Shown here piece after piece: positions 1-5,707 of a stretch of 10,924 nucleotides of DNA (its first letter is position 1; each line of letters starts with the position of its first letter). Both the position numbers and the translations under genes were made by a program. This DNA is from a bacterium (GTDB lineage: Bacteria; Patescibacteriota; 4484-211), in assembly GCA_027020325.1 (NCBI GenBank), contig JALUVT010000073.1, positions 1-10,924 of the forward strand, read 5' to 3'. The notes beneath the pieces are model-generated. The model saw only the letters and a program-made list of their open reading frames with translations, was not told the origin of the DNA and ran no database searches.

Positions 1-1540
1 GGTTAACAGACCTTTCTTCAGGATAAAAAGGCGATAAATTATTTCTCACCCAATAGTCAAATAATTTTTGCAGGTCAAATCCACTCACTTGAATAGTTTT
101 ATCTCCAACAATTTTTGTTCCAGCCAAGGTGTCAAGATCATCGGCTTTATAATCAGAAATAATTTTTAAATCAATCTTCTTTGCCTTAACATCAATATGT
201 TTCTTTAAATCGTATCCCTTTGCCTTTTCCAAAAATATCTCTACAAACAAAGGCGATAACCTTGTTTTCTCCCTATGTCTTTTTGAGTAATAAGAAGTTA
301 AATTAATCGGTTTATAATCCGCTCGTCTTCTGCTTGTATAAATAGCAATATAACTTTTAGCAATATCTTCTTGGATTTCTATGTTGTCTAAGTTTGTATA
401 AACATAGCCATAATTTAAAGCTTCATTCTTATAATGTCCTTTATCGGGTTCGGGCATTCTCATAATTCTGCCAACTGTCTGAATAGAAAAAATTTGACTG
501 TGCCATTCTCTAAATAAAATTAAAATCTGCGCCCTTGGACAATCCCACCCCAAAGCAATCGCTTGCTTAAAAATTAAAACTTCAACTTCGCTATCGTTTC
601 TTTCAACATCTTCTTTATTGATATGTTCTCCCGAAAGCCAAATTGCTAGCTTGTTATTGCCTTTTTCTGTTGAAATTTTATATTTATTCTTCAAAATACT
701 TTCCACCCGTTCTCTTATCCTATCTTCCAAACTCGTTTTTCTGTCTGGCAATTGAATTAAAATCAAAGGATTAACATTAACTCCTTCTTTTTTATAAGCC
801 TCCACTAGTTCTTGCCTCTTTTTTATAGCCGCATCAATTACCAACTCCTCACTCCCACCACTTAATTTTTGTGTTTGTATTTTCCCTTGTCTTATAAAAT
901 TCTCAAACTCGTCATTTAAAATGACAGCTTTTTTAATCATTCCTTCTCTTTTTACATCGTCCAACAATACATCAACTGTTAGATCACCTCTTAAAACCGG
1001 CGTTGCTGAAACTTCAACAGTCAATTTTGGCCCAATCATCTGAATTAACCCCTGAGAAATTTTACTGGTAGCATGATGATGAGCTTCATCAATAATTAAA
1101 ATTATCTCCCGTCCTTCTTCTTTTGTTCGCTCTATAACTTTAGACAAATTAAAATCCTGTTCATTATCGCGGATATAAACATTATCTGCTTTGTTGATGC
1201 TCTCCCAATTGAAGAACAGGATTTCGTTTTCTCCTATCTTTCTATCATCTAAATCTTCAAAATAAGAACATTTTAAAGCCCTGCTTTCTTCAAAATAATT
1301 TTCCAGCTTCTTTCTACTTTGAATATGAAGCTGTCTCGGCGCTGTCCAAATAAAGCTGAGAGGTTGTCGAACTTCCTTATCATCAACCAACTGCTTTAAA
1401 AACTCCGCCATCATTATTGTCTTACCTGACCCAGTAGGAGATTTTAAAACCAGCTTTTTACTGCCAGAATAACCCAAAAGCCTTTTAGCTTTTTCTAATA
1501 ATTCATCTATTGCGTTTTGTTGATAGATTTTGAGAGTCAT
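1..1540 (-). CDS. res: Type III restriction enzyme Res subunit (helicase/nuclease), C terminus cut by window edge
   Basis: The frame is open for 513 codons from ATG at 1540 to the window edge, so the C terminus is missing. Superfamily 2 helicase motifs are in order: Walker A SPTGSGKT at residues 34-41, the DEAH box DEAHHH at 151-156 (motif II), SATP at 178-181 (motif III), and QTVGRIMR at 354-361 (motif VI). DEAHHH is characteristic of type III Res subunits, which hydrolyse ATP to communicate along DNA between recognition sites and cut with a PD-ExK nuclease domain in their C-terminal part; that domain is not in view. No Shine-Dalgarno site precedes the ATG. The gene is separated from its partner mod by rnhA and a DUF3800 gene, whereas mod and res are usually adjacent. 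A degenerate copy of its first codons lies about 805 bp upstream. Family assignment is secure; activity cannot be judged without the missing part. Confidence 0.93.
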   Translation of the reverse strand, partial: MTLKIYQQNAIDELLEKAKRLLGYSGSKKLVLKSPTGSGKTIMMAEFLKQLVDDKEVRQPLSFIWTAPRQLHIQSRKKLENYFEESRALKCSYFEDLDDRKIGENEILFFNWESINKADNVYIRDNEQDFNLSKVIERTKEEGREIILIIDEAHHHATSKISQGLIQMIGPKLTVEVSATPVLRGDLTVDVLLDDVKREGMIKKAVILNDEFENFIRQGKIQTQKLSGGSEELVIDAAIKKRQELVEAYKKEGVNVNPLILIQLPDRKTSLEDRIRERVESILKNKYKISTEKGNNKLAIWLSGEHINKEDVERNDSEVEVLIFKQAIALGWDCPRAQILILFREWHSQIFSIQTVGRIMRMPEPDKGHYKNEALNYGYVYTNLDNIEIQEDIAKSYIAIYTSRRRADYKPINLTSYYSKRHREKTRLSPLFVEIFLEKAKGYDLKKHIDVKAKKIDLKIISDYKADDLDTLAGTKIVGDKTIQVSGFDLQKLFDYWVRNNLSPFYPEERSVN

Positions 1541-1548
1541 AGGTTATC
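1508..1548 (-). repeat. Direct repeat, copy A, spanning the functional res start codon
   Basis: This copy covers the first 11 codons of res and 8 bases upstream. It aligns with 2314-2353 with 35 identities in 41 columns and one single-base gap. It holds the intact start of the long Res frame. Confidence 0.85.
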
Positions 1549-1593
1549 TACACATTTATATTGACAAAGCTTTATTTATTTATTAGCTTTATA

Positions 1594-1650
1594 CTAAGCA
1601 AGTAAATCCTTATGCGTGGGCTTCCGGATGGTTGCTCGTAAATAGCGCAT
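1594..1650 (-). other. GC-rich 18-codon mini-ORF and inverted repeat between DUF3800 and res
   Basis: The gap between the DUF3800 gene and res holds a compact segment much richer in G and C than its surroundings. On the minus strand it reads as a short ORF, MRYLRATIRKPTHKDLLA and then TAG. An imperfect 9-bp inverted repeat (1608-1616 against 1646-1654, one G-T pair) brackets most of it with a 29-nt loop. No Shine-Dalgarno site is seen before its ATG. It could be a translated leader, the remnant of a larger gene, or a small structured RNA; I do not recognise it. It lies inside the segment bounded by the two res-start copies, so it may have arrived with the DUF3800 gene. Confidence 0.3.
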
Positions 1651-1694
1651 AGGGTTTTGCTTTTTATGGGAATAAAGGACTTTCTTCCACAATT

Positions 1695-2300
1695 TTATTT
1701 AATTAAATTATAATAACTGTCATCTCCATATTCATATTTTCTAAAAATCGCCCAACTGGCAAAATCTATTGCTTGTAATGATTTTTCCTCATGCGGAGTT
1801 TTAATTAAAACTTTAACATTCACCTTATGACGATTTGTAATCTGACTATTAAGATAATTTCTGAAATTTTGATTAAGAAATTTATTAGTCTCCCTTCTTG
1901 AGGCGATAATCAAGATATTCTTTGTTAAGGGCAATAACTTTTTAGTATATATGCGGTCCAACAAAATATTAGCCACATAATTATACAATACCTGTTTTTC
2001 ATTCTGAAGTTTTATATAAACTCTCTTTTTATTCAAATAAATTGTCATTATAGCGCAGTCTTTTTCTGATAATCTTTTGAGCAATCTTTGACGAGTAACC
2101 GGTTTTTCTTTTACTGCATGTAAAACTCCAAGTCTTCTTTTGTATTTCTTTTTTAACTCTGAATGTGTCCTGCGAACAATTTTCTCTATAGATCTTTTAC
2201 TTTCAACAAATAGACAAGTAATTACAAAAACCTTAGAAGTTTTCTTCTTTTTAAAATTAAAACCTAAATCTCCTGATTCGTCTAAAAAAATGTAATTCAT
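1695..2300 (-). CDS. DUF3800 family protein
   Basis: A 201-residue protein with the DUF3800 hallmarks: an N-terminal beta strand running into DESGD (residues 7-11), and a C-terminal QAIDFASW (176-183) whose Asp179 and Trp183 match the family's QxxDxxxW-type motif. The biochemical function of DUF3800 is not firmly established. It is frequent in phages, mobile elements and defence loci, and its spaced acidic residues have prompted suggestions of a metal-dependent nuclease; for this protein that is inference only. The protein is very basic in the first half (KKKK near residue 17, many Lys/Arg at 36-75), in keeping with nucleic acid binding. No Shine-Dalgarno site is visible. The gene sits between rnhA and res, bounded by two copies of the res start, which suggests an inserted cassette. 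ATTTAATTAA occurs at both ends of the gene (1697-1706, 2303-2312), but in such AT-rich DNA this may be chance. Confidence 0.85.
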   Translation of the reverse strand: MNYIFLDESGDLGFNFKKKKTSKVFVITCLFVESKRSIEKIVRRTHSELKKKYKRRLGVLHAVKEKPVTRQRLLKRLSEKDCAIMTIYLNKKRVYIKLQNEKQVLYNYVANILLDRIYTKKLLPLTKNILIIASRRETNKFLNQNFRNYLNSQITNRHKVNVKVLIKTPHEEKSLQAIDFASWAIFRKYEYGDDSYYNLIK

Positions 2301-2313
2301 AGATTTAATTAAT

Positions 2314-2353
2314 TATTGCGTTTTATTGGTAGATTTTGAGTTGCATAGTTATC
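2314..2353 (-). pseudogene. Remnant res start (direct repeat copy B), MQLKIYQ then stop
   Basis: Read on the minus strand, an ATG at 2346 opens MQLKIYQ followed by TAA. The true res start reads MTLKIYQQNAI. Nucleotide identity with 1508-1548 is 35 of 41 columns. Tyr6 differs by a synonymous change (TAT against TAC), and the stop arises by CAA to TAA. The remnant ATG lies 2 bp behind the rnhA stop codon, the same spacing as between fic and mod, so this was probably the original res start position before the DUF3800 segment came between. The alternative, a short coupled leader peptide, is possible but explains the sequence match less well. Confidence 0.7.
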
Positions 2354-2786
2354 CGTTTAGATGTTTATCTATACAATCATTGCATAATTTATCGGCAATT
2401 TTGATAAACTTGTTAGTCCGTGGAACATGGAAATATTCGATGTTTTGAATGCCTCGCTCCTTTTCCGAAGCTTCCCTATATAAGATTTTAATCATAGGAT
2501 CTTTCACCCTCCATTCTTCAGACATTTGTTTAATTAATAACTGACTATCAGAAAAAACTTTGACATTCCATCTTGTATATTCTATTGCCTTGTCTAAGGC
2601 CCTTATCAAACCCTGGTATTCGGCCTGATTGTTTGTGATATCTCCCAAAAAATGAGCTTCTTTATAAATTATTTGACCATTTAATACAAACACAAAAGCA
2701 CAAGCACCCTTCCCAGGATTATTTCTAGAAGCGCCGTCAGTATATATTTCCAAAATATCGCTTTTTTGTACTACATTAACTCGCAT
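2349..2786 (-). CDS. rnhA: Ribonuclease HI (RNase H-like, RVT_3 type)
   Basis: A 145-residue RNase HI. It hydrolyses the RNA strand of RNA-DNA hybrids with two metal ions. All four catalytic acids are visible: Asp17 in YTDGASRNNPG, Glu56 in NNQAEY, Asp80 in FSDSQL, and Asp132 in KIADKL near the C terminus. The compact form without an N-terminal hybrid-binding domain resembles the archaeal/Gram-positive RVT_3 branch more than E. coli RnhA. Length is normal for a single-domain enzyme. Its start is 6 bp behind the mod stop, so it is almost certainly co-transcribed with mod. A housekeeping role is possible, but its place inside a restriction operon suggests either cargo or a contribution to defence, for example against R-loops or RNA-primed invading DNA; this is inference. 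Confidence 0.92.
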   Translation of the reverse strand: MRVNVVQKSDILEIYTDGASRNNPGKGACAFVFVLNGQIIYKEAHFLGDITNNQAEYQGLIRALDKAIEYTRWNVKVFSDSQLLIKQMSEEWRVKDPMIKILYREASEKERGIQNIEYFHVPRTNKFIKIADKLCNDCIDKHLNG

Positions 2787-2792
2787 AACATA

Positions 2793-4577
2793 TTACTTAA
2801 AAATCCTCCTATATACCCCTAAAATTACCTCAGGAATAGGAGATAGTTTAATCCGCGCACCAGAACTTCGTTCGGTGCGGGGCCTTGCTTCGCTTCGCTT
2901 TTTGTTTAAATCAGCAAATTCATCGCTAAAATCATCGTCCCCCAATGAAAAAATGTAGACACTCATATTGCCACCTAAATTTTTTATCGCTTCTTTAAAT
3001 TCTGGAATCGCTGATTGGTCAAAAATTATACCGGTATAATGCTTGCTGTTCTTAAAAACCTTAAAACTGCCTTTGTCTTGTACCAATTCAAATGTTCCTT
3101 CTTTTACACAAAGCATTTCCGTTGCCTGTTTTGTAAGTTTAATTTTATTTTTATCTGTTGGCTCAGCGTCTACAAAATCAGTTTTGAAGTATTTTAGATT
3201 ACCGCCCAAACCTCCAACTTGTTCGCTCTTCAAATTTTTATATCCCTGAATAACTTTTTTAACTCGTGGATAGCAAACATCGGTACAGATATTATTTTCA
3301 TTATTAGTAACCAAAATAAATTGACGATTCCCTCCATCTTCTTTATTAAGCTCTAAAACTGCTTGTCCAGTTGTGCCGGTGCCAGCGAAAAAGTCTAAAA
3401 CTAGAAAGTCTTTTTTGTGTATATTGTTTTTCTCATCAAAATAGAGAGAAATTAGATATCTTATTAAAGATGTAGGCTTAGGATAGTCAAATATATCTTG
3501 TTTCCCAATAATTCTTTCTAATTCGGCAGTTCCATCTTCTGTTGTCCCAACTTTATTATTAAATCTATCTAATACAACAAAAGGATTATTTCTATTAGTG
3601 AAGATTATCTGCTTTGGCGAATCTCTAAAAATCTTATTTTTGCCATATATAACCCTAATGGCAAAATTAGAAGTTTTTACCCAAAATTTTGCCCCCTCTT
3701 TAATATGTTTATTAACAGTATTCTGGGACCAACGGGACTTAAAAGACAAGATAAGATCATTAACATTTTTCCCGTTCTTAACTTTAACGGGTTTAATAAG
3801 CTTATATTTTTTATCTGTGGAATTTCTATAAATTCCATCTTTAATGTTAAAAATTACAGAATTAGCAGGAAAAACTAATTTTTGTATCCTATTCGAAGCG
3901 TTATATAATGGAGCATCATCAAATTCTGTTTTTAATCTTTGGACAAGTAATTCTCGAATTTTATCTTTAAAAAATCTCCGAGCATAAACTAATATATACT
4001 CGCAGTTGGAATAATAATTCACTTTTTGTCGTCCGAAATGCTGAGTCTTTTCCCATATAAACATGGTAATAAAATTCCTTTCCCCAAATATCTCATTCAT
4101 CAACAGCTTCAACTGAGCCACCTCGTTATCGTCAATTGATATAAAAATCACCCCTGTGTCTTTCAGTAAATTCTTTGCCAGTCTCAATCTTTTCTCCATA
4201 AAAGAAAGCCATTTTGAGTGGCGGTAGGAGTCTTCTTTGTCAACATAATGGTCGTTGAAAATAAAATCTTTATTGCCCGTGTTATACGGCGGATCAATGT
4301 AAATCACATCTACCTTTTTGGCATGGGTATAATTCAAAATAGAAAGCGCGTGGTAATTATCACCTTCAATAAGTAAATTTACCGGCTTTTCTTTATCAGT
4401 AATTATCTCTTTATTCTTAACTTCTTTTAGAAACGGCAATTTTTCTTTGCACATCTCTACAACATCTTCCGGTTTATCTTCCCACACCAAACCATACTTT
4501 TTTCTTTTCTTTAACTCTTTCTTTAGCCGTTCAATTTCCGCTTTTAATTTTTCTACTTCAGGTTGTTTGTTACTCAT
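2793..4577 (-). CDS. mod: Type III DNA (adenine-N6) methyltransferase, Mod subunit
   Basis: A 594-residue DNA methyltransferase. The catalytic motif DPPYNTG (residues 95-101) comes before the SAM-binding motif FAGTGTTG (397-404), the order of the beta class to which type III Mod proteins belong. Residues 5-28 are Lys/Glu-rich and heptad-like, so probably a coiled coil. The long stretch at about 180-345 between the motifs should hold the target recognition domain, which sets specificity for both modification and Res. FDYPKPTSLI (363-372) is a typical conserved element before motif I. Mod methylates one strand of an asymmetric site and forms the active complex with Res. The start lies 2 bp after the fic stop, implying translational coupling. 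The C-terminal core ending in PIPEVILGVYRRIF is interrupted by an in-frame GC-rich insertion at about residues 561-575. Otherwise it looks intact. Confidence 0.95.
   Translation of the reverse strand: MSNKQPEVEKLKAEIERLKKELKKRKKYGLVWEDKPEDVVEMCKEKLPFLKEVKNKEIITDKEKPVNLLIEGDNYHALSILNYTHAKKVDVIYIDPPYNTGNKDFIFNDHYVDKEDSYRHSKWLSFMEKRLRLAKNLLKDTGVIFISIDDNEVAQLKLLMNEIFGERNFITMFIWEKTQHFGRQKVNYYSNCEYILVYARRFFKDKIRELLVQRLKTEFDDAPLYNASNRIQKLVFPANSVIFNIKDGIYRNSTDKKYKLIKPVKVKNGKNVNDLILSFKSRWSQNTVNKHIKEGAKFWVKTSNFAIRVIYGKNKIFRDSPKQIIFTNRNNPFVVLDRFNNKVGTTEDGTAELERIIGKQDIFDYPKPTSLIRYLISLYFDEKNNIHKKDFLVLDFFAGTGTTGQAVLELNKEDGGNRQFILVTNNENNICTDVCYPRVKKVIQGYKNLKSEQVGGLGGNLKYFKTDFVDAEPTDKNKIKLTKQATEMLCVKEGTFELVQDKGSFKVFKNSKHYTGIIFDQSAIPEFKEAIKNLGGNMSVYIFSLGDDDFSDEFADLNKKRSEARPRTERSSGARIKLSPIPEVILGVYRRIFK
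2853..2900 (-). repeat. Coding palindromic GC-rich element inserted in mod
   Basis: A GC-rich patch inside AT-rich mod. Its core at 2856-2879 folds into a near-perfect hairpin: CGCACC (2856-2861) pairs with GGTGCG (2874-2879), GAAC (2863-2866) pairs with GTTC (2870-2873), with a 3-nt loop and one bulged base. Next to it on the plus strand lies a tandem GCTTC run (about 2887-2899). It encodes about 15 residues, RSEARPRTERSSGAR, placed between the acidic segment and the conserved PIPEVILGVYRRIF tail, where type III Mod proteins normally have only a short linker. The frame is kept. This is the pattern of a protein-coding palindromic repeat element, as known from Rickettsia; equivalence to that family is not claimed. 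Confidence 0.65.
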
Positions 4578-4579
4578 AA

Positions 4580-5707
4580 TTATCTTTTAAACAAACCCAA
4601 ATATTCTTTTAAGGCAAAAAGGCGGTTACGAGAATAGCCGGTTATCTCCACTAATAGACCTAAATCAACCAATGATTTAATTAAGCGGTTAGCGCTGTTA
4701 AAACTAACTCCCAATACATTGGCTACATTCTTAGCATTAACAATTGGCTGAGAGAATAGAAAAAGCAGAAGCCTTTGGCCCTTTTTAGCGCGCGCGCCCA
4801 ATGTCATAATCTTATTTTCATAATATCTTCTGAGTTCAACTATTTTTCTAAGGGTGGCAATGCCGCCTTGGGCTGTTTCAACAACGCCGCTTAAAAAGAA
4901 TTTTATCCATTGCTCTAAATTGTTAGTCTGATGCACCATTGTTAAAGCGTCATAATAACTGCCGCGGTTTTTTTCAAAAAAAGCAGACAAATACAAAACA
5001 GGTTTTTCTAAAATTTTGGCGTCAATCAACTGCAAAACGATTAAAAGCCGACCAATTCGGCCATTGCCGTCCAAAAACGGATGGATTGTTTCAAATTGAT
5101 AATGACAAATGGCAATTTTAATGAGAGGAGGAATTGTTAATTTTTTGTTGTGCCAAAATTTTTCTAAATCCGCTAAAAGCTCCGGAACTTCGTCATGATG
5201 AGGAGGAATAAAAAAAGCGTCAGTTAAAGATGAACCGCCAATCCAATTTTGACTTTTTCTAATCTCACCGGGCAATTTATGTTTTCCCCGAACGCCAGAG
5301 AGTAAAATTTTGTGTGTTTCTTTTATTAAGCGGAGGCTAACTGGAAGCTTCTTCAATTCTTCAATGGCAAAATTTATGGCTTTAATATAATTCTGAACTT
5401 CAAGCCAATCATCTCTTCTTTCTGGAATTATTTCCTCTTTGGGAAGAAGGACTTCGTCAATCTCGGTTTTTGTGCCCTCAATTCTGCTGGAGGTAGTCGC
5501 TTCTTTGATGATATGCATTTTTATAAAAAAATCGACATCAGGCACTAAAAAAGAATAAGCGTTAAGTTCGCCTAAAAGACGCATTGCTTCAGCCAGCAAA
5601 ATATCAATTTTTTTGTCTTTCCACTCAAAATCGCGGTTAATAAAAGACGGGCTAAAGCTTTTATAGTTATATTGCTGTTTATATATACCAGCTTTAAAAA
5701 CTCTCAT
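4580..5707 (-). CDS. Fic-family protein with C-terminal winged helix (predicted AMP transferase)
   Basis: A 375-residue Fic protein. The N-terminal part (about 30-100) corresponds to the Fic_N domain and holds the autoinhibitory motif SSRIEG (residues 73-78, fitting [S/T]xxxE[G/N]), which marks a class II enzyme whose Glu blocks ATP until released. The catalytic motif [12 protein letters not shown] (209-220) is complete, with His209 as the expected base. The C-terminal region (about 305-370) is a winged helix-turn-helix, suggesting DNA binding. Fic enzymes usually transfer AMP from ATP to a protein hydroxyl; the target here is unknown. It is the first gene of the restriction operon, 2 bp before mod, and its promoter carries a perfect inverted repeat, so autoregulation through the winged helix is a reasonable inference. 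ATG at 5707 is chosen because the frame begins there just below the promoter; no Shine-Dalgarno site is seen. Confidence 0.92.

Follow-up and report, generated by a model that had tools for sequence, protein, structure and literature searches.

A DUF3800 gene and a convergent RNA gene form a cassette flanked by a duplicated res start in a type III restriction operon

Introduction

How can an accessory gene come to lie inside a type III restriction operon without breaking it, and why should the beginning of the gene behind it be present twice? The question is posed by contig C73 (JALUVT010000073.1, GenBank assembly GCA_027020325.1) of a Patescibacteriota bacterium, whose 670-kb genome is assembled in 149 contigs. 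We analyzed this contig at its full length of 10,924 nt, hereafter the window. Its minus strand carries the gene row fic, mod, rnhA, DUF3800 and res, the last of which is truncated at the contig end. A first-pass annotation made from the letters alone had noted a duplicated start of res around the DUF3800 gene. We find that the DUF3800 gene and a small structured RNA gene form one cassette, that flanking duplications are a habit of this cassette, and that the window gives good support to an insertion that duplicated its target.

Results

The start of res lies on both sides of the DUF3800 gene

The features involved are the following, in window coordinates.

2349..2786, minus strand: rnhA-like gene (RVT_3, 6.7e-14; RNase_H, 1.9e-12)
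2314..2353, minus strand: res-start copy 1, a remnant behind rnhA (TAACT-ATG, MQLKIYQ, stop)
1695..2300, minus strand: DUF3800 gene (PF12686), the left part of the cassette, whose edge is at its start codon
1590..1668, plus strand: structured RNA gene (model R1, 93.2 bits), the right part of the cassette
1561..1589, plus strand: promoter-like pair of the RNA gene, TTGACA at 1561-1566, 17 nt, TAGCTT at 1584-1589 (9/12)
1508..1548, minus strand: res-start copy 2, which opens the working res (aligned on the res start codon)
2..1540, minus strand: res, type III restriction subunit (ResIII PF04851, 4.7e-23), truncated at the contig end

As an ungapped direct repeat, 1508-1542 and 2314-2348 are identical at 30/35 positions (86%), and over 41 columns with one gap the pair has 35 identities. 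Blast scores it at 48.2 bits (50 columns, 84%), compared to a maximum of 22.9 bits when this probe is run against 346 further 120-nt segments of the window. Both copies share the res start codon as their alignment point, and 42 nt of res are repeated. Copy 1 begins 2 bp past the rnhA stop (TAA CT ATG), reads MQLKIYQ and then has TAA where the working copy has CAA; besides this stop codon, it carries a one-base loss. The working res is opened by copy 2 (MTLKIYQQNAIDEL). Before the insertion, res would have come directly after the rnhA-like gene.

The recount confirmed what the annotation had said of the pair: the res start is present twice with 35 of 41 columns identical, the copy behind rnhA stops after MQLKIYQ and the other is a full res start, and the DUF3800 gene and a GC-rich element lie between them. 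That element can now be identified as a plus-strand structured RNA gene with covarying base pairs and its own promoter.

The DUF3800 gene and the RNA gene form one cassette

We searched 84,980 species genomes for relatives of the DUF3800 protein and obtained 88, 80 of which were kept. The locus set used below comprises the window and 66 further loci (L017-L082); three partial matches (L083, L084, L096) and eleven at 26-29% identity (L085-L095) were excluded.

Across 378 pairs of loci, nucleotide similarity on the left breaks off just ahead of the DUF3800 ATG (median distance 1 nt, quartiles 0 and 5; 95% within 17). On the right it stops at the far side of a hairpin, at a median of 103 nt past the end of the protein match (quartiles 101 and 112). 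Eight longer matches are listed, which include loci sharing res and one pair of close relatives. The DUF3800 gene and the RNA gene are thus one cassette of about 0.75 kb, with sharp edges, found at unrelated sites.

The carriers are labeled as many candidate-phyla bacteria, among them the window's own phylum, and as Nitrospirae, Ignavibacteria, Omnitrophota, Bacteroidetes, Deltaproteobacteria and others. In two Nitrospirae loci the DUF3800 protein is 76-77% identical to that of the window, which, together with the range of carrier taxa, speaks for horizontal spread. We considered a plasmid or phage as the vehicle and rejected it: the search gave six plasmid and three phage records with best identities of 34% and 26%, and 67 viral loci with at most 33%. 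A neighborhood made up of defense genes only was also rejected, as the immediate neighbors, of which 116 of 126 were scanned, are mostly diverse; their commonest Pfam family, the DNA methylases, accounts for 5/116.

Direct repeats recurrently flank the cassette

We compared the 400 nt upstream of each cassette with the 600 nt downstream at a threshold of at least 36 bits. A direct repeat of 21-214 bp was present in 14/67 loci, compared to 23/4422 mismatched pairs of flanks; L066, a locus whose upstream sequence contains a second RNA, is a member of 14 of the 15 top mismatched pairs. With 3 kb on each side and at least 50 bits, direct repeats were again found in 14/67 loci and inverted ones in 3, compared to 8 and 1 of 4290 mismatched pairs when L066 is left out.

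As a control, we took the remaining genes of 100-450 aa at these loci. Repeats flank 14/63 testable DUF3800 loci and 9/277 control genes (odds 8.5, p = 3.2e-6), and a left copy ending no more than 80 nt from the gene start occurs in 9/63 and 4/277, respectively (p = 6e-5). One of the nine repeat-flanked control genes is the NYN gene of L024. Repeats were also found in other DUF3800 subfamilies (1/8, 1/2 and 1/22 loci).

The duplicated pieces are mutually unrelated: the murD start in L042, a ComM-like start in L025, the res start in the window and L066, the 3′ end of a methylase-like gene in L038, and the 3′ end of a 979-aa gene, a methylase by eye, in L043. The annotation had asked whether DUF3800 genes at other loci are flanked by duplicated starts of the next gene. 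Partial copies of a neighboring gene do flank them in L042, L025, L038 and L066, a start in three of these and a 3′ end in L038, which is in the annotation's favor. The variable repeat length is not that of the fixed, short target duplication of a classical insertion sequence, and no inverted arms at the two cassette edges are among the 25 longest pairs listed for the window. The cassette is recurrently accompanied by flanking duplications.

In L025, the ComM-like gene is preceded by a series of at least four starts of this gene, partial or full, which share 77-88% identity; some are separated by other genes.

Relatives of the type III operon have a single res start

Two further genes complete the row in the window.

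4580..5707, minus strand: fic gene, first in the row (Fic_N, Fic; PADLOC SoFic, 4.4e-119)
2793..4577, minus strand: mod, type III N6/N4 DNA methylase (PF01555, 3.5e-36)

Res matches at E 1e-70 occur in 15/360 genomes, the window's own included. In twelve of these places (L143-L154) res comes after mod, with a gap of about 390 nt in L150 and within some 40 nt in the rest. The nearest Res relative (L141, 84% identical) lacks DUF3800 and has a SLFN_AlbA_2 gene and one gene without a Pfam match between mod and res; its res begins 2 bp past the preceding stop, a junction coupled as in copy 1 (TAACTATGCAACT). The annotation had pointed to relatives without DUF3800 in which res would begin 2 bp after rnhA. 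The spacing and the single start stand in L141, but the preceding gene is not rnhA. As no relative with rnhA adjoining res was found, the empty site is only approximate; rnhA itself was discarded as a probe for it, since its matches in 286/360 genomes look mostly like housekeeping RNase HI and are uninformative.

In 14/14 Res relatives without DUF3800, the 0.7-1.5 kb ahead of res yielded no second res start (best 15.7-22.0 bits). Of the observations that the annotation had named as contradicting it, relatives without DUF3800 that carry both copies were thus not seen (0/14), nor was MQLKIYQ-stop conserved as a leader in the relatives examined. It is on these single starts, the cassette edges and the recurrent flanking repeats that the support for insertion with target duplication in the window rests.

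L155 and L156 cover the places of L141 and L142 at greater length. In L142 (L156, 1539-2973), a two-gene module of the cyclic oligonucleotide-based antiphage signaling system (CBASS) lies between mod and res (CD-NTase, PADLOC 5.7e-105; Cap15, Pfam 2.5e-34). A radC-like gene stands just ahead of the type III operon in L155 (Pfam RadC, 1.9e-43) and, by eye, in L156, L018 and L052.

The copies often differ as alleles would

We sorted the mismatches between coding copies by codon position. Ten pairs from seven loci were picked by hand from a set of 796 mismatches, whose total mixes in unrelated repeats and was not used; pairs from L017, L051, L063, L066, L068 and L080 were left out for want of a clear frame. 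The ten pairs have 22, 15 and 69 mismatches at the first, second and third positions, and six of them, one per locus, have 12, 7 and 40. In these six hand-picked pairs the third-position share is 0.68, compared to the roughly 0.44 that we estimate for one decaying copy (p = 2e-4).

One L025 pair (2, 1, 13) differs in 2/44 residues and at 13 third positions. Differences are confined to third positions in L042 (0, 0, 5; one of the five changes the residue) and L040 (0, 0, 3). In L038 (3, 2, 13), nine changes are specific to each copy when compared to three outgroups, and third positions account for six in one copy and seven in the other. Because the differences fall mostly at third positions, several remnants resemble alleles that had kept coding up to the event.

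A res start lies to the right of the RNA in L017 (~46 nt) and in L066 (~23 nt), with no res gene in the DNA examined there, which is the footprint of a cassette that has moved along with a piece of res. The L017 piece is close in length to the 42 nt repeated in the window. A weak mosaic hint is present in res, whose first 90 nt are nearer L156 and most other segments nearer L155. The annotation had offered an insertion that rebuilds the res start or a recombination with a related res; the data support an entry of DUF3800 as a sharp-edged unit that gave res a second start, and the choice between the two leans toward recombination.

The RNA gene is structured and has its own promoter

A conserved hairpin stands directly behind the DUF3800 stop, and an anchor pattern matches it in 65/67 loci; of the two missed, L032 ends at the contig end and L067 has a hairpin farther off, visible by eye. 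We aligned 40 of the 65 sequences, and the window RNA is among the 40 used to build model R1. The alignment has 21 base pairs, 13 of them with changes on both sides. Paired cells make up 97.6% of 840, compared to 80.6% in shuffles and 40-54% with slid partners, and two-sided changes number 148, compared to 36.3 in shuffles, none of which (0/500) was as high. The RNA family is strongly covarying. For the 91-nt window sequence, only the plus strand folds better than shuffles (z = -3.65, compared to -0.38 for the minus strand), indicating that the RNA is convergent with DUF3800. Model R1 matches RNA in 10/379 genomes of the window's phylum, and in 29 known carrier genomes it has one match in 25 and two in 4.

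The promoter of the RNA, with a spacing of 16-18 nt, ends 3-12 nt before the hairpin. It scores at least 9/12 in 55/65 loci, compared to 7.4% of shuffles, and at least 11/12 in 24/65 loci and in none of the shuffled sequences. In the window it is weaker than in several relatives and was not listed by a general promoter scan; a better -10 (TATACT, 1590-1595) sits 23 nt from TTGACA. Upstream of the promoter, the DnaA-box-like TTATCCACA or its reverse complement is exact in 17/65 right flanks (background 2e-5 per position), e.g., L025, L036 and L073. We considered TTATCCACA as an end of the element and rejected this. By eye, it also precedes a tRNA-promoter-like site in L073 and other TTGACA promoters, and we therefore take it to belong to the promoter region of the RNA.

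Rfam searches found no DUF3800 RNA family in the window up to E 5, none in 12 loci at the gathering score, and no match for L071 up to E 1 or for L038 up to E 3. An end-to-end alignment to DUF3800-III was obtained for the L042 RNA, in the expected orientation and with the GUAA-UCC stretch in common, scoring 18.4 bits, far below the cutoff of 43.8. Membership of the cassette RNA in RF02962 was rejected (0/29 genomes at the RNA position).

The DUF3800 protein has a predicted RNase HII-like fold

The PF12686 match of the window protein, 54.8 bits, is above the Pfam gathering score of 21. An RNase HII-like fold is predicted for the DUF3800 protein of L017, which is 90% identical to that of the window, and on this prediction DUF3800 would be an RNase HII-like nuclease. 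Identity to ribonuclease HII is 14-16%. A sequence search for solved structures gave eL14 as its best hit (E 0.027), which we did not find credible. Another DUF3800 protein has an RNase H fold with a catalytic rearrangement, and the family is tied to noncoding RNAs, according to passages of a published study (PMC10910872).

The cassette leaves no room for a promoter of the DUF3800 gene's own. At 201 aa, the window protein is shorter than all 63/63 relatives with an unbroken frame (207-215 aa), whose C-terminal tail (..VEESPLFP) is still legible in another frame just past its stop; at 1670-1700, the conserved tail has been lost through a small frame change. The window copy is perhaps an ageing one.

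Cassettes stack with other modules

In L017, L025, L043, L063, L268 and L269, copies of one target separate different modules, forming arrays. These contain NYN and DUF3800 genes (L017, L063), TIR and DUF3800 genes (L043) or several ComM-like starts (L025). L268 and L269 were found through RNAs scoring 41.3 and 36.7 bits with RF02962 (cutoff 43.8). Their DUF3800-like genes, which are below Pfam significance (E 1e-3 not reached), stand beside restriction-modification (R-M) genes: N6_N4_Mtase and MvaI_BcnI in L268 and a C5 methylase in L269. Similarity between the two cassettes spans 799 nt and ends there.

The NYN gene and its RNA are a second nuclease-RNA cassette, which repeats flank in L017 and L063. 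NYN-domain genes are followed by an RNA element of their own, with a conserved core, in four of the loci L017, L063, L198, L199 and L200, with a diverged form in L200; no RNA element was seen by eye at the distant NYN gene of L024. The C5 DNA methylase of L269 (293-1666) has a C-terminal CopG-antitoxin domain (Pfam 3.5e-76 and 1.7e-25).

Discussion

The explanation that we consider best as a whole, with a probability of roughly 0.58, is that a mobile cassette integrated by a homology-driven route and that the second res start came from a piece of a neighboring gene. The mobile unit would be the ~0.75-kb stretch consisting of a promoterless DUF3800 gene and then a convergent small RNA gene with its own promoter. 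The incoming DNA, perhaps a circle, would have borne the cassette along with a short piece of the neighbor gene from a former host (tens to ~200 bp) and may have entered by homologous recombination, possibly with a role for RecA, between this piece and the same gene of the new host. In the window, the point of integration would be some 13 codons inside the res gene behind rnhA. The old, broken start would have stayed with rnhA as copy 1, and the complete start beside the RNA promoter, probably of donor origin, would open the gene as copy 2, so that res is kept and DUF3800 is readable from the operon. This model leaves the first arrival of a cassette at a new gene unaccounted for.

The differences between copies lead us to favor homology-driven integration, which we do not regard as proven, over a decaying target-site duplication. 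In the latter, a cut with a wide stagger, perhaps made by the DUF3800 nuclease with its RNA, would be filled in, giving copies identical at birth, the left of which decays. Sharp cassette edges at unrelated targets suit such a process, as do left copies that end within 80 nt of the ATG in 9/14 positive loci, and the stop and one-base loss make copy 1 of the window look like a decaying copy. The L038 copies, nearer to each other than to outgroups, fit as well. However, copy lengths vary from 21 to 214 bp, different modules are stacked at one target, and several remnants are near-intact as protein while their third positions differ, with the six-pair share of 0.68 instead of about 0.44 (p = 2e-4). 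We consider a target-site duplication unlikely, though a serious contender. Third-position divergence would also be expected from allelic spread only, with one old insertion per target gene, the block moving by ordinary recombination in its flanks and the intact copy being re-exchanged with other alleles, and res starts do go with the cassette in the window, L018, L024 and two loci without res. This account presupposes that first insertions took place precisely at many unrelated genes, for which it offers no explanation, and the remnants would have had to stay young; we find it improbable.

A chimeric contig that joins two res-like starts could arise in so fragmented a genome (149 contigs), in which the operon is cut by a contig end, but the pattern recurs in unrelated assemblies and the copies are diverged, not identical, so we give an assembly artefact very little credence. 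Even less do we credit a conserved MQLKIYQ-stop leader peptide that regulates the operon. Its frame is short and open and its start is coupled behind rnhA, but in the upstream stretch examined a second res start stands in 0/14 Res relatives without DUF3800 and in 0/3 others with it (L018, L024, L052).

Several observations weigh against homology-driven integration of a mobile cassette or limit its reach. No flanking repeat at 36 bits was found in 49/63 loci, and neither a circle, nor a recombination breakpoint, nor an exact empty site was found. The window pair, with 3, 1 and 2 differences by codon position, is too short and mixed to separate alleles from decay. Elsewhere, the pattern is not matched by L031 (4, 0, 0) or by one L043 pair (3, 4, 3), the L027 pairs, also left out, have a doubtful frame and no third-position excess, and some third-position changes in L038 and L042 alter the residue. 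In L038, identity is 91.6% between the two copies and 87% to L188, a result that a plain duplication would produce too. Since almost every carrier genome is a metagenome bin, an individual phylum label may reflect misbinning. The annotation's broader idea, that accessory genes join type III operons by duplication-insertion, is not supported as a rule: in L018, L024 and L052 the cassette sits within type III operons with no duplicate, and L141 and L142 have other accessory genes between mod and res, also with no duplicate.

As to function, we tentatively suggest that DUF3800 and its RNA may be an RNA-partnered nuclease of the toxin-antitoxin or phage-defense type, a possibility that we hold somewhat short of even odds. 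A bolder proposal is that protein and RNA are themselves the machine of movement, in which the RNase HII-fold nuclease, aimed or licensed by the convergent RNA, would open targets and leave the long duplication, with the NYN-RNA cassettes as a parallel lineage. We think this a long shot. Compared to ribonuclease HII, the cassette protein differs by its 14-16% identity and by its RNA partner.

Insertion of R-M genes with long target duplication is reportedly described by Nobusato et al. (2000) and Furuta et al. (2010). Passages of three papers describe some R-M systems that insert with long, variable target duplications on the order of 100 bp (PMC3874152, PMC3031569; also PMC4978471). R-M genes between long duplicated target pieces have been reported since 2000, and the passages concerned leave the mechanism unsettled. 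The cassette is alike in being an accessory unit without a known mobile element, between variable direct target repeats of ~100 bp. It is unlike in being a nuclease-RNA pair with sharp edges at a start codon and an RNA gene, in the allele-like differences between copies, in its many phylum labels and in its stacking with other modules. R-M units adjoin similar cassettes in L268 and L269, but the inserted unit itself is DUF3800 with its RNA and not an R-M complex.

Other known elements resemble it in part. Integron gene cassettes consist of a promoterless gene and then a hairpin element, and are stacked in arrays. The DUF3800 cassette shares these traits, but its hairpin is a promoter-driven RNA gene with covarying ends, and its flanks are, by eye, long pieces of unrelated target genes and not one recombination site. 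Unlike that of a classical insertion sequence, its target duplication has no fixed length; the one gene of the cassette is of RNase H fold by prediction. The Rfam DUF3800-associated RNAs (DUF3800-I, -III and -IX among others; e.g., RF02962, RF02969) are likewise small structured RNAs beside a DUF3800 gene; the cassette RNA is below their cutoff wherever tested. In the open full-text literature, which includes few subscription papers and not the original description of the DUF3800 RNAs, we found no nuclease-RNA cassette, no such RNA family and no stacking with NYN, TIR or R-M genes, and the passages covered on DUF3800 do not mention its mobility. What is known is therefore the insertion of R-M genes with long duplications; the cassette as a nuclease-RNA unit, its RNA family and its stacking with NYN, TIR and R-M genes are the parts that we did not find in open papers.

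The same two-part unit is thus found across many bacteria, with a flanking spare copy in about one case in five. A 0.75-kb unit of one protein and one RNA, with sharp ends and at many independent sites, bears the same mark as R-M insertions; a process this compact could be reconstructed in a laboratory strain. It links the orphan family DUF3800 and an undescribed RNA to the RNase HII fold and to a way of spreading, and it suggests how defense modules may join an operon without breaking it.

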